From Halobaculum sp. CBA1158 (GTDB taxonomy: Archaea; Halobacteriota; Halobacteria; Halobacteriales; Haloferacaceae), in the NCBI RefSeq assembly GCF_021431925.1, contig NZ_CP090371.1, positions 2,790,001-2,854,000 of the forward strand: a stretch of DNA of 64,000 nucleotides, read 5' to 3'. The translations under genes were made by a program, and so were the position numbers. Below are positions 17,918-63,945 of the stretch, piece by piece (positions within the stretch are counted from its first letter, which is position 1; each line of letters starts with the position of its first letter). The notes beneath the pieces are model-generated. The model was not told the DNA's origin. It ran no database searches and saw nothing but the letters and a program-made list of their open reading frames with translations.

Positions 17918-19720
17918 TCAGCAGTCCGCGCCGCCGGGGCGACTCGGCAGCGACATCGCGACTCGGTCGCGGGTGCCGGCGTCGTAGACGACGTGTCGGT
18001 CGGCGAGCAGGCCCCGGTAGCGACCCGGGTCGACAGCGACCGCCGGCCGGGGGTACTGCTGCGCGCCGACCGTCGCCCACGACGCCTGCGAGACGACGGC
18101 GCAGTCGGGGGGCGGCCCGCCGGCGAGCCAGCCCGAGACCGGCGCGCGCCGGGCCGGCTCGTCCCGGTCGTAGTAGCCGGCGATCCGGACGAGGTGGTCG
18201 TCGCCGGCCCACGTGCCCGGCACGTGCGCGACCGCGTGGCTCGTGCCCGCGAACTCCGCCTCCTCGGTGATCCCCCGGTAGGGGACCACGTCGACGCCGG
18301 CGAAGGCGATCGGGAGGCTCGCGGCCGCACACGTCAGCAGGACCGCCGCCGCGACGGGGACGGCCGCGCGACGGAGACGACCGGGGCGGCCGGAGTGGCG
18401 GGGATCGACGGACCCCCCGGACCCAGTTGACCCGTCGCCGGCGGCGTCGCTTCCGGCGGCGTCGCTTCTGCCGGTAACGCCGCGAACGCGGGGGAGCCCG
18501 ACCGCCAGCGCGACGCCCGCGAGCACGGCCCACGGCAGGTGCGCGAACGTCTGCACCCGGTAGATGGTGTTGAGGTACGGCGGCGTGAGCGCGGCCGACA
18601 GCGAGAAGCCGATCGCCAGCGCGACCGCGGTCGCCAGCGCCGCCATCGCCCGCCCGTCCGGCCGGTCCGCGAGCGCGGTCGGCAGCGCCCACGCCGCCGC
18701 CAGCGACGGGATCGCGAGCGGGAGCAACGCCGCGAGGAGCACGCCCGGCGTCCGCGGCAGCCCCGGGAACACCGCGGTCGCGGCGTTGAGTGCCAGCAGG
18801 CCGAACGCGACGCAGACCGCGAGCGCGCCGGCGACCCGGACCCGCCGCGGTCGGGCGCGCGCCAGCGCCGCGAGCCCGAACGCCCCGAGGATCACCCAGG
18901 CGGCGAACAGGTCGAGCGCCTCGGTCAGCCTGGCGCTCTGGATGACGTACGCCGGCGTCAGCCGCGCGGTCAGCGAGAAGTAGCCGACCGCGTACGCCCA
19001 GAAGGCGACCGCGGCCGCGACGTGGCCGGCCAGTCGGCGCGGGGTGCGCCCCGGCGCGAGCACGGCCCAGCCGACGAGCACGAGTCCGAACACGACCGTG
19101 TCGAGGTTGTGCGTCGGCGGGAGCGCCAGCGCCAGCGCCGCCGTCACCGCGTACCAGCCGAGCCGGCCGGTGTGGCTCGCGCGGGCGTACGCGACCGTCG
19201 CCAGCGGAACCAGGAGGAGTCCCAACGTCTGCTCGTCGACCGCCATCGCCCGGTGGAGGGTGAGCCCGCCGACGGCGAGCAGGCCGGCCGCGACGCCCGG
19301 GCCGACCCGGCCAACTGGGACGGCAGTCCGGGTGATCCGGGCGGCGATCCGTCGGGCGACCGCGGCGGCGACAAGCACGGGCACGGCCCCGACGACCGCG
19401 ATCGCCGGCTGTGCGACGACCAGCGCCGACTCGCCCGTGACGGCGCTGACGACCGACAAGAACGCCGTGAACTGGAGGTCGTCGACGGGCATCCGCGACA
19501 GGGGGAGTCGCCCCGTCGCGGCGACCAGCCGGACGTGGCCCGCGTAGACGATCCCGTCGGGATTGAACGGGAGCGACGACCGGATCAGCGGACTCGCCCG
19601 GAGCGCGACCGCGACCGCGAACGCCGCGAGCACAGCCAGCGCGCCACGGCGACGGCCGCGGACTCCGGTACCCCCGTGACCGTCCCGATCGGCGGCGTTC
19701 GAGTCGGTCGGGTCACTCAT
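17918..19720 (-). CDS. polytopic membrane protein, 600 aa, glycosyltransferase-C-like topology
   Basis: A 600-residue protein with about eleven to twelve membrane helices through residue 450, then a TM near 455-475 and a C-terminal ectodomain of about 125 residues. The first ectoplasmic loop contains FNPDGIVYAGHVRL, and a PPTHNLDTVVFG motif sits in the middle. This layout, a multi-TM core with early acidic loop and extracytoplasmic tail, resembles GT-C type membrane glycosyltransferases, but I do not see a firm catalytic motif, so this is only a suggestion. Its start overlaps the end of the permease gene by 8 bp, implying translational coupling and a shared role. Confidence 0.78.
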   Translation of the reverse strand: MSDPTDSNAADRDGHGGTGVRGRRRGALAVLAAFAVAVALRASPLIRSSLPFNPDGIVYAGHVRLVAATGRLPLSRMPVDDLQFTAFLSVVSAVTGESALVVAQPAIAVVGAVPVLVAAAVARRIAARITRTAVPVGRVGPGVAAGLLAVGGLTLHRAMAVDEQTLGLLLVPLATVAYARASHTGRLGWYAVTAALALALPPTHNLDTVVFGLVLVGWAVLAPGRTPRRLAGHVAAAVAFWAYAVGYFSLTARLTPAYVIQSARLTEALDLFAAWVILGAFGLAALARARPRRVRVAGALAVCVAFGLLALNAATAVFPGLPRTPGVLLAALLPLAIPSLAAAWALPTALADRPDGRAMAALATAVALAIGFSLSAALTPPYLNTIYRVQTFAHLPWAVLAGVALAVGLPRVRGVTGRSDAAGSDAAGDGSTGSGGSVDPRHSGRPGRLRRAAVPVAAAVLLTCAAASLPIAFAGVDVVPYRGITEEAEFAGTSHAVAHVPGTWAGDDHLVRIAGYYDRDEPARRAPVSGWLAGGPPPDCAVVSQASWATVGAQQYPRPAVAVDPGRYRGLLADRHVVYDAGTRDRVAMSLPSRPGGADC

Positions 19721-53898: not shown

Positions 53899-54064
53899 GA
53901 GTCGCGATCCAGCTATCAGGACTGAATCGAGCGTCGTCAGCGACCGCTCAGCCGGGCGATACCGACCGGTATGGCGCGGCTGGCGGACGACGGACTCTTC
54001 GGCGACCGATCGACCTCGGCCCGCGACGGACGACCTTTTACCACTCGACCGCCGATTCGGAGGC

Positions 54065-54565
54065 ATGACCGACGACGCCGCCGATCCCGGCACCGTTGAC
54101 GACGCAGGCGAGAAGCTCGCGGAGTTCCTCGCGGGCGAGCGCCTGGACGACGTGGCCATCTACCTCACCCACGACCACCTCGACGAACAGGGGAAGATCG
54201 CGAACATGGGCGAGGCCGTCGACGGCGGCGTCGTCCTCGTCGTCCCCGGCGACGACGGCCGGCAGGCGTTCGCCGCCGGCACCGGGATGGACCCGATGCA
54301 GTTCGCGAAGGGAGCGATGGACCGCAACGGCGTGATCCACCCCGACCTGGGCGGCGGCGAGTGTCCCGACGCGGCTGCGGACCCCGAGGCGGACCACCGC
54401 GCGGAGTTCCTCTTCGCGTTCGGCGAGGAGCGGAACGAGGGCGTCGGCGGCCTCTACGCCGAGGGCGACGTGATGCACGCGTACGCCCACTGTCGCTGCG
54501 GCACCGACTACTCCCACAAGTGGGTCATGGGCGAGTACAGCGAGGACGCCGTCGTCGAGGAGTAG
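54065..54565 (+). CDS. hypothetical protein, 166 aa
   Basis: A 166-residue very acidic soluble protein. The N-terminal half (about 15-90) has alternating helices and a strand-like VVLVVPGDDGRQAFAAG segment. The C-terminal half has CPD, HAYAHCRCGTDYSHKW with three cysteines and several histidines that could form a metal site. No named family is recognised with confidence; it reads like a haloarchaea-specific protein of unknown function. Cysteine spacing (CxC) differs from classical zinc ribbons. It lies divergent from the histidine kinase gene with about 200 bp between them. Confidence 0.82.
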   Translation: MTDDAADPGTVDDAGEKLAEFLAGERLDDVAIYLTHDHLDEQGKIANMGEAVDGGVVLVVPGDDGRQAFAAGTGMDPMQFAKGAMDRNGVIHPDLGGGECPDAAADPEADHRAEFLFAFGEERNEGVGGLYAEGDVMHAYAHCRCGTDYSHKWVMGEYSEDAVVEE

Positions 54566-54623
54566 CTCGGCAGATCGCGTCGCGGGCGCGGGTCGGGGAT
54601 CGGCTCGGTGGACGAGTTAACAC

Positions 54624-54648
54624 TCCGGTTCGAATCCGGATCCCACGA
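54624..54648 (+). other. tRNA T-arm-like fragment
   Basis: TCCGG-TTCGAAT-CCGGA (54624-54640) is a perfect five-pair T-arm with canonical TTCGAAT loop, followed by TCCCACGA, which could be an acceptor strand and discriminator. No matching 5' acceptor, D-arm or anticodon arm is found upstream, so it is not a functional tRNA. It may be a leftover of a tRNA gene or of integration at one. Confidence 0.45.
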
Positions 54649-54738
54649 CCGGTGCGCCGGTCGAAATCGACCGCCCATCAGACGACCGTTCGGTGATTCA
54701 CACTCATCGAGTCTGCTTCTGTGTGGTATCCACGGCGA

Positions 54739-54897
54739 TCATGCGAACTGGTTCTGAAGAACTTCGATCCACTCGACGGTTTCAAAATCGGACAGACAGT
54801 CTGCACAGATCACCACGTCTTCCAACACGGTATTGCCTTCTAGCAGCAGAGTACGGTGTTCTAAAGCAGAACCAGCACAGGAGAAACACTCGTCCAT
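54739..54897 (-). CDS. four-cysteine zinc-ribbon-like microprotein, 52 aa
   Basis: A 52-residue protein with two CxxC motifs (C4-C7 and C31-C34), the layout of a single zinc ribbon, starting MDECFSC. Haloarchaea encode many such small zinc-finger proteins. The start is backed by a clear TTTATT box at 54924-54931, about 27-34 nt upstream. Composition is much less GC-rich than flanking genes, in line with the low-GC patch around it, and codon usage suggests acquired DNA. No neighbours on the same strand are close. Function unknown; a protein-interaction or regulatory role is plausible. Confidence 0.72.
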   Translation of the reverse strand: MDECFSCAGSALEHRTLLLEGNTVLEDVVICADCLSDFETVEWIEVLQNQFA

Positions 54898-54923
54898 CAG
54901 AAGGAATCGTGACACCTGAGATG

Positions 54924-54931
54924 AATAAATA
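54924..54931 (-). promoter_or_regulatory. TATA box of the microprotein gene
   Basis: TATTTATT on the minus strand predicts a start of transcription near 54902 and a leader of about 5 nt, supporting the short reading over a longer upstream-extended frame. Confidence 0.65.
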
Positions 54932-55327
54932 GGCGCGTTATCGAAAAAGTGAGTGAATAGCTCACAAACGCGGTTAGTAGACGCTCCTGTACTGGCCGAT
55001 CCGAGTCCCCGTGGGTCCGAGAAGAGCGAATGCAGGATACACAGAAGGTTTCTAACAACTGTTTTACAGTCAATAGGACGGAATAAATCGGGGTCGGCGG
55101 GCGTGATTGTGTTTTGAACGACGAGATTCAAACAGAACCGAGTCCACCGAGAACGTGGCAAGCGCCGCCGCTCTCGAGTGTTGAGCGACGGGGTAGGTCA
55201 GTCGGCGATCGCCGTCGTGGCGGAACCACGTGGCTGAAAGGTGCCGCCTGACCGTGCCGTCGACTCTACCTTTCGGGCGTCCGTACAAAGGGCCTCCGGT
55301 CGGACGGCGTCGCGCGGCGCTGGTCGC
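54932..55327. other. low-GC intergenic stretch, no gene seen
   Basis: About 400 bp of mixed composition with a markedly lower GC part (54932-55140). Short open frames exist on both strands but lack haloarchaeal codon usage and promoters. I see nothing functional beyond possible remnants of foreign DNA. Confidence 0.5.
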
Positions 55328-56548
55328 CTACTCGGCGGCGTCGGCCGCGTCCTCGGCGGCCGCCTCGCTGGCGACGGCCTCGAACGCCCGGAGGATGACG
55401 CGCTTGGCCGTCGCGCCCTCGCTGCTCCAGTGGTGGGCGAAATCGAGCATGTCGTCGTAGATGTCCGGCATGCAGCCGGCGGCCTTCGGGTGGCCGCCGC
55501 CGTTCACTCGACCGGCGACCTCGTGACAGCGCTCGAACTCCTCGGAGCCGCGGATCGACGCCGAGCCGGAGGGCTTGACGATCACCGCGGCGTCCATCCC
55601 CTGCTCGCGGAGGGCGTCGGCGACCTCGTTCTGCGAGCACCGGCCGTAGGTGACGCCGACCGACCAGTCGCCGACCTCGTGTTCGACCGCGCGGCCGACC
55701 GCCTTCTCGATCAGGCGCTGCTTTTCCACGCGGCGCTGTTCGACGTACTCCATCGCGACCGGCGGCAGGTCGACGCCGTACGCGCCGACGACCGCGGCGT
55801 ACTCCTCGCCGCCGGTCCAGTAGGCGAAGTCGGCGAGGTCCTGGGAGCGCTCGTCCTCCTTCAGCCAGAGGTCGTGGTCGCGGGTGACCGCCGCGAGCTC
55901 GGCGAAGCGCTCGTCGAAGTCGTGTCCCAGCGAGCGGAGGGTCACGTCCGTCGAGCACTCCTCGTCGCTCTCGCCGACGACGAGGTCGATGCCGAGCTCG
56001 CGGACCGACGCCGCCAGCTCCTCGCCCCACTGGTGGTGGTCGAACCAGCGGACCGACTCGGCGCGGCGGACGACCGCGCGCAGGTCCTCGGCGATGTACT
56101 GGAACTCGTCGGGGCAGATGTCGCAGACGAACACGTCCGCTCCCTCCTCCAGGTACTCGGCGGCGTATCCGAGGTCCTCCTCGAAGGAGTGCGGTCCCGA
56201 GGGCAACAGCGCGACCGGCGACTCCGGGAGGTCGTCGCCGTCGTCGTCACCGTCGCCCTCCTCGCCGTACTCCTCCTCGTAGGTCCCGTCGAGTCTCGCG
56301 CGCCGACGCGCCTCGAACGGGTCGGGGGCGAGCGCGGCGTCGTACGCCTGGCGGATCAGCGCCACGCAGCCGAGGCCGTCGGCGTCGGAGTCGGTGATGA
56401 CGACCGCCTCCGCGCCCTCGATGGCCTCGCGAGCGCGCTCCTCGGCGCGGTCCTCGTCCAGCGAGTCCGGGTAGAAGAAGCCCGTCCCGGGGAGGCGCGA
56501 CTTGCGCTCCAGGGGAAGGGTGTCGCTCTCGATGAGTTCGTCGTCCAT
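55328..56548 (-). CDS. DHH-family phosphoesterase (RecJ/NrnA-like)
   Basis: A 406-residue DHH/DHHA1 enzyme of the RecJ/NrnA superfamily that cleaves phosphodiester or pyrophosphate bonds. The DHH metal motifs are visible: VVITDSDADGLG, VCDICPDE, WFDHHQWGEE, AVTRDHDLW. The C-terminal DHHA1 RNA/DNA-binding motif is RVNGGGHPKAAG. An acidic loop at about 92-108 is an insertion. It could act in nanoRNA/ssDNA turnover or repair; archaeal GAN-type nucleases share this fold. Normal length. It is followed at a distance by the low-GC region and preceded by a stress protein gene on the same strand. Confidence 0.92.
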   Translation of the reverse strand: MDDELIESDTLPLERKSRLPGTGFFYPDSLDEDRAEERAREAIEGAEAVVITDSDADGLGCVALIRQAYDAALAPDPFEARRRARLDGTYEEEYGEEGDGDDDGDDLPESPVALLPSGPHSFEEDLGYAAEYLEEGADVFVCDICPDEFQYIAEDLRAVVRRAESVRWFDHHQWGEELAASVRELGIDLVVGESDEECSTDVTLRSLGHDFDERFAELAAVTRDHDLWLKEDERSQDLADFAYWTGGEEYAAVVGAYGVDLPPVAMEYVEQRRVEKQRLIEKAVGRAVEHEVGDWSVGVTYGRCSQNEVADALREQGMDAAVIVKPSGSASIRGSEEFERCHEVAGRVNGGGHPKAAGCMPDIYDDMLDFAHHWSSEGATAKRVILRAFEAVASEAAAEDAADAAE

Positions 56549-63709: not shown

Positions 63710-63871
63710 ACCACGAGCGTGACGCGGGGGACGTAAATCGGTCCGGGGCAGCGACGGTCTCGCGACGGCGACGCTCTGCCGAGGCGGTCGAGATCCGTAC
63801 ACCCCTTCGTTTCGTGTGGAAACCGCCGTACTACGCCCGTAGTTTCGTCGAGTAGAAACGGCCGAGAGAAG

Positions 63872-63945
63872 TAGTCCATCCTGGATTCGAACCAGGGTCG
63901 TTGCCCCCAGAAGGCAACAGGATTGGCCAGCTACCCCAATGGACT
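63872..63945 (-). tRNA. tRNA-Gln (anticodon CTG)
   Basis: The minus strand folds as a 74-nt tRNA. The acceptor stem AGTCCAT pairs perfectly with ATGGACT, and the discriminator is A. The anticodon stem TTGCC/GGCAA carries the seven-base loop TTCTGGG, giving anticodon CTG (Gln, codon CAG). The T-arm is CCTGG-TTCGAAT-CCAGG. No intron is seen and CCA is not encoded. Confidence 0.95.

Follow-up and report, generated by a model that had tools for sequence, protein, structure and literature searches.

A conserved, structured small RNA gene beside an AT-rich insert in Halobaculum

In the available part of one report (PMC3956466), 3 of the 27 Haloferax volcanii sRNA genes studied occur in more than 10 other haloarchaeal genomes, and one sRNA, H225.2R, is described as a 96-nt RNA that was predicted by comparison and is present in 19 other haloarchaeal genomes. 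The accessible text of another report (PMC6104027) describes the rancRNA s194 of the same species as an intergenic RNA of 97 nt; it has a TATA box of its own at 28 nt upstream, its shortest abundant read is 23 nt long and ends in four to six C, and it is reported as conserved only in other Haloferax. Here we describe a structured RNA of about 100 nt from Halobaculum sp. CBA1158, encoded within a 64,000-nt stretch of its genome (hereafter the window, from whose first letter coordinates are counted). By description rather than by sequence, this RNA is like H225.2R in its similar length and wide haloarchaeal presence (PMC3956466), and it is like s194 in its similar length, its own TATA box and its intergenic position but differs from it in having no C stretch at the corresponding place (PMC6104027). 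Since the C stretches do not fit, we rejected identity with s194, which is a less likely counterpart than H225.2R; the latter is a possible counterpart, judged by its description in the available text. In one genome of genus g49 a TBP gene stands at 2.2 kb from the RNA, which recalls the place of H225.2R beside HVO_1727, a TBP gene, but unlike in that arrangement two genes stand between TBP and the RNA. Literature searches with sequence strings of the RNA matched only papers that by title treat unrelated subjects, the titles and abstract openings of work on conserved haloarchaeal RNAs offered no obvious candidate, and nothing emerged from a search on the neighbours of Hsp20 in Haloferax. Our claim is of an RNA family missing from Rfam; with the known sRNAs compared by description, we claim no novelty for it as a transcript.

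The RNA gene adjoins an AT-rich insert, at one side of which stands a string resembling the T-arm of a tRNA. Integrative elements that target tRNA genes make duplications of tRNA 3' ends. This locus is like those elements in having an insert with a T-arm-like string on one side, and unlike them in having no parent tRNA, no recognised integrase and no bracketing repeat. The insert encodes a 52-residue protein that, as far as the available descriptions go, resembles the HVO_0758-type zinc-finger micro-proteins of H. volcanii and Brz of Halobacterium salinarum, which have fewer than 70 residues and two CxxC pairs. In contrast to C(P)XCG micro-proteins, this one reads CFSCA and CADCL, with no G after CxxC; because the residues that follow its CxxC pairs are A and L, it falls outside the strict C(P)XCG motif as given there.

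We assign a probability of about 0.72 to a joint account of the locus, in which an AT-rich insert with a zinc-finger-type gene, a chance T-arm and an adjoining conserved sRNA gene lie side by side. The insert and the T-arm, most likely a chance match, are ordinary; what makes the locus interesting is the conserved RNA gene that borders the patch.

The conserved RNA gene

The locus appears to be a convergent intergenic spot between a DUF5807 gene on the left (54065..54565, plus strand; PF19123, E 7e-48) and a DHH-type gene on the right (55328..56548, minus strand; PF02272 (DHHA1) at 20 bits, below the family cut-off of 25.9). When the empty sites of relatives were read, a block beside the patch proved far more conserved than its surroundings. 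This block holds the RNA gene, at 55162..55261 on the minus strand with a 5' end at about 55261. The RNA starts with GACGGCACGGUC and folds into a long hairpin whose ACCUUUC bulge is conserved; a CUACCCCGUC stretch and a second, 3' hairpin follow, both likewise conserved.

Comparison among genomes gives the RNA its structure and strand. Five pairs change on both sides among nine Halobaculum sequences, and among 43 best-hit loci (42 distinct; the rows of the covariation analysis, which does not take in all 121 genomes with a match) 95.1% of cells are paired and 14 pairs show changes on both sides, the rows being aligned to a model that leans towards its own structure. None of 500 shuffles reached any of five covariation measures, and the signal was lost on sliding the partners. 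Helices 2 and 3 covary, and helix 4 shows no covariation, with 86% of its cells pairing. Across helices 1 to 3 there are 76 G-U cells and 2 C-A cells, and because G-U cells so far outnumber C-A cells, the minus strand and not its complement is read as the RNA.

Upstream, a TATA-like box with an upstream element lies at 55284..55299 on the minus strand (CCGGAGGCCCTTTGTA on the coding strand), with the TATA centre about 26 nt ahead of the RNA 5' end. Among 33 non-redundant loci, which form the rows of the promoter comparison, most positions from -38 to -24 are conserved, at up to 1.48 bits, as CCGGAGG followed by a T-rich box; positions -20 to -4 reach at most 0.58 bits, and conservation starts abruptly at the 5' G. 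Judged from these alignments, the region is arranged like an archaeal promoter with its start site.

A first covariance model found the RNA in 49 of 170 genomes of the family, and a second found it in 121 of 392 Halobacteriales genomes and 34 of 95 genera, in families f1, f4, f6, f7, f12 and f17 of the order; E-values from these models are rough, and absence from the remaining genomes is not proven because strict search filters lose weak matches. The 13 hits in a sample of 246 genomes from the phylum (own genome included) all fall within Halobacteriales. The RNA is mostly single-copy, with more than one match in 4 of the 121 genomes. No phage match was found by blastn, nor any in viral contigs by one exact pattern. 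Rfam 15 gave four chance-level matches at E<=5 on window positions 54000-55400, none of them on the RNA, and no match at E<=1 on three further loci (L028, L033, L026). A role as a guide of rRNA was tried and rejected: the longest exact complement to the genome's own rRNA operon is 11 nt, a length equalled by 50 of 300 shuffles. Inspection by eye for an H/ACA-type box at the set distance showed UACCCC after the stem.

The genes beside the RNA are common to close relatives and otherwise different, with three contexts in genus g49. Examples occur on plasmids of Halomontanus rarus, Halorussus halophilus, Halobaculum lipolyticum and H. marinum, all of them large plasmids because it was a plasmid collection that was searched; no annotated feature covers these matches, in a collection that lists no RNA genes. 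On the H. lipolyticum and H. marinum plasmids (L189, L190), which have similar gene order, an annotated site-specific integrase lies about 2 kb from the RNA. At L178 (genome G390) the RNA is 2.2 kb from a TATA-binding-protein gene and near genes read as tRNA methyltransferase, rfcC and rnz, the last two by eye.

Because of the promoter-like layout and the differing neighbourhoods, the RNA is most likely an independent, trans-acting small RNA. It could act by base pairing or by binding protein, through an exposed CCUUUC bulge and the loop of the 3' hairpin. We consider it probable, somewhat less firmly than the account of the locus as a whole, that this is a widespread structured haloarchaeal sRNA unlisted in Rfam: a trans regulator, mostly single-copy, that has a TATA box of its own, preserves two covarying helices as well as exposed motifs, and is encoded at varying places on chromosomes and plasmids across six families. 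Its presence in 121 of 392 Halobacteriales genomes compares with the mere 3 of 27 H. volcanii sRNAs noted in more than 10 genomes in the available part of that study (PMC3956466). An RNA kept so widely, for which the 5' end, the structure and exposed motifs have been predicted, is amenable to deletion and target search in a tractable archaeon.

The AT-rich insert and its gene

The patch spans 54691..55160, with a GC of 0.498 against 0.715, and the lowest-GC 470-bp stretch of the window begins at 54677 (GC 0.494; next lowest 0.577). An earlier, sequence-only reading had described a low-GC patch with a T-arm at its edge; the patch is real and slightly longer than then described, but the T-arm falls beyond it by about 50 bp, within a GC-rich flank (54566-54690, GC 0.672).

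That reading had also proposed looking for an empty site in close relatives, and one is present in seven of ten congeners (G001, G003, G005, G006, G007, G009 and G010), where the RNA block follows the DUF5807 gene without the patch. The interval between the DUF5807 stop and the end of the DHH match used for comparison measures 768 bp in this genome versus 244-421 bp in G007, G009, G005 and G006. The RNA block is absent from the DUF5807 locus in G004, which carries the RNA on another replicon, and in G008, an 85% complete genome in which the RNA model found no match. By this comparison the patch is a lineage-variable insert.

A patch at the same place, which the sequence-only reading had counted against its own proposal, was found in only one of the ten congeners, with related edges. 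This is H. gomorrense (G002), whose longer low-GC insert has a 1.9-kb middle; the left edges match at 82.5% over 40 nt and the right edges at 74% over 129 nt, and the middle of our patch (54677-55035) is unrelated. The H. gomorrense insert (L055:16890-18840) encodes a receiver-PAS protein and, by eye, a short HalOD1-like frame at 18356-18508. The DUF5807 gene, found in 32 of 40 genomes (own included), supplied our sole gene tree, of modest support, in which this genome and H. gomorrense are not sisters. Because that tree separates the patch-bearing genomes, one insertion with later losses, a transfer, or two insertions are all possible histories.

The one recognisable gene of the patch encodes the 52-residue microprotein (MDECFSCAG...ICADCL..., CxxC-N23-CxxC) at 54742-54897 on the minus strand (54739..54897 with the stop). 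The sequence-only reading had noted both this CxxC/CxxC gene and a TATA box, and both are present: the box, at 54924..54931 on the minus strand, reads AATAAATA, that is TATTTATT on the coding strand. In this genome, where alone it was read, TATTTATT stands about 31 nt ahead of the ATG, a distance that probably fits a leaderless haloarchaeal gene. At E<=0.001 the protein has matches in 6 of 392 Halobacteriales genomes (own included), in four families and one match to a genome, of which two are weak (E 7e-5 and 3e-4); the ten other Halobaculum genomes gave none at E<=0.1. The gene at L131 also sits in a GC dip (0.52, with flanks of 0.72 and 0.64), and that at L133 does not (0.71). By its distribution this is a patchy accessory gene, and horizontal transfer may have brought it here. 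A phage or plasmid source was looked for and rejected, since neither 72,556 plasmid records nor 50,697 phage records gave a match at E 0.1 and viral contigs yielded none.

The six sequences share 10 invariant columns, among them all four cysteines. At medium confidence (pLDDT 76.8, pTM 0.52), AlphaFold2 predicts a beta-beta-alpha-beta fold whose helix starts at the second CxxC. On that model the protein is probably a zinc finger of the treble-clef type, with its four cysteines as the likely zinc ligands. Neither Pfam nor NCBIfam gave a match, and among solved structures there was no relative, with one ferredoxin at E 0.57. By analogy with other haloarchaeal zinc-finger micro-proteins, as these are portrayed in the available literature, it might serve as a small regulatory adaptor.

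The T-arm string and rival explanations

The perfect T-arm of the sequence-only reading holds up as a string of letters: TCCGG-TTCGAAT-CCGGA stands at 54624-54640 on the plus strand, with a perfect 5-bp stem. A first-order Markov model of the window predicts 0.25 perfect T-arms per 64 kb by chance, and 22.5% of 200 simulated 64-kb windows held at least one, so that a single such string is weak evidence. The window contains one other, within a tRNA-Gln at 63871-63945. That gene is the nearest tRNA and was rejected as parent: it has a different 3' end and lies 9 kb off in the opposite orientation. An ARAGORN call of a 'tRNA-Arg' at 54556-54650 is spurious, as it overlaps the end of the DUF5807 gene and has no Rfam tRNA match at E<=5.

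The string together with its supposed acceptor strand makes up a 23-mer, TCCGGTTCGAATCCGGATCCCAC, which occurs once in the 3.32-Mb genome when 2 mismatches are allowed, and within that limit in this genome alone among 40 (own included). Three mismatches admit one further site in the genome, in a 3-kb locus where ARAGORN found no tRNA. When the last 25 nt were compared ungapped with 48 ARAGORN tRNA entries, a few of them spurious, the best match was 18/25, to Leu-TAG. A gapped comparison with 46 tails again placed Leu-TAG best, needing one inserted base and one substitution, and the Leu-GAG tail, which ARAGORN's end shortens, fits about equally by eye with one inserted base. Random flanks behind the same T-arm scored as high in 9.7% of 3000 trials. 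The aligned flank of H. gomorrense keeps ATCCCACGACCGG without an intact T-arm, and an alternative placing of the gap there retains 10 of 11 core letters (GGYTCGAATCC), so that the string may be a very old, blurred tRNA copy. Most likely it is a chance match, and not the remnant of a tRNA.

According to the sequence-only reading, a mobile element integrated at the 3' end of a tRNA gene and decayed, leaving behind part of a T-arm and a single cargo gene. Relatives do show an empty site, and the insert has one recognisable gene; an empty site, common to inserts of any kind, lends this history some support, as do the T-arm string on one side, the Leu-TAG and (by eye) Leu-GAG tails that fit with one inserted base, and the frequency of tRNA 3'-end copies in this genome. 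It is the link to a tRNA that lacks support. A genome-wide search found no tRNA sharing the 3' end, either nearby or elsewhere, in a list that may miss one or two, since the Rfam tRNA model, with 44 matches in the genome, omits ARAGORN's tRNA-Gln of the window; about 10% of random flanks do as well as the proposed acceptor strand, whose 23-mer lacks a second copy within 2 mismatches; and the T-arm is not intact in H. gomorrense. No repeat brackets the patch: there is no exact direct repeat of 10 nt between 54561 and 55170, and none of four imperfect pairs of 11-12 nt encloses it. Nor does an integrase-like sequence occur in five reading frames of the patch, which gave nothing above chance against Pfam and nothing against PHROGs (frames shorter than 40 residues were left out). 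We therefore give this reading very little credence.

Two further alternatives concern the history of the patch and the nature of the conserved block. The AT-rich stretch might be ancestral in a subgroup of Halobaculum and lost in most species, the microprotein gene being a later arrival inside it; the edges related in H. gomorrense around an unrelated middle point this way, as does a DUF5807 tree that does not join the two patch-bearing genomes, but several independent losses would be required and the case leans on one gene tree of modest support, so that we regard this history as possible but rather unlikely. That the block is instead a processed 3' UTR of the DHH-type gene is suggested by its place in this genome, 67 bp past the DHH stop and on the same strand. 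Against this, the RNA and its upstream box recur together next to different genes in further genera and in three contexts within g49, and the DUF5807 and DHH genes are more than 1.3 kb apart in G001, G003 and G010, which makes such an origin highly improbable. Under the joint account that we prefer, the intergenic spot holds, in most compared Halobaculum genomes, the sRNA gene on the minus strand under its own promoter; past the 3' end of that gene, this genome has about 0.5 kb of AT-rich DNA with one intact, probably leaderless gene for a 52-residue protein whose four cysteines likely bind zinc. From the upstream layout and the varied sites we infer that the RNA is transcribed independently and acts in trans.

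tRNA 3'-end copies elsewhere in the genome

Copies of tRNA 3' ends are real in this genome, yet none is found at 54624, and the idea of a tRNA-derived remnant thus fits the genome but not the locus. The core GGTTCGAATCC occurs 23 times: 11 times inside tRNAs, 9 times near a tRNA as a copy or inverted copy, and 3 times as an orphan, the string at 54624 included. Downstream of 14 of 43 tRNA genes, at 60-263 bp, lies a copy of the final 20 nt that agrees in 18 to 20 letters (11 copies are exact), in a test that left out ARAGORN hits longer than 120 nt, counted identical tails once and searched a downstream stretch that varied from 98 to 700 nt among the tRNAs with a copy. The Val-CAC copies form units spaced 135, 134 and 135 bp. 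Examples in this genome are L126 (G000:C1:759500-760700), L122, L114, L124, L068 and L076, and those in other genomes are L191-L220. Rfam on four of the copy loci returned tRNAs only.

In many copy units an inverted T-arm, GGATTCGAA, precedes the direct copy, which would allow the unit to form a long hairpin (three examples have z -4.5 to -5.9). These units are reminiscent of the rtT repeats at the tyrT locus of E. coli. The tRNA 3'-end hairpins may merit separate study. The pattern GGATTCGAA-N28-58-GGTTCGAATCC occurs in 177 of 293 Halobacteriales genomes, with a reversed control of 0 in every listed row, and 26 of 30 examined loci are no more than 400 bp away from the 3' end of a tRNA.
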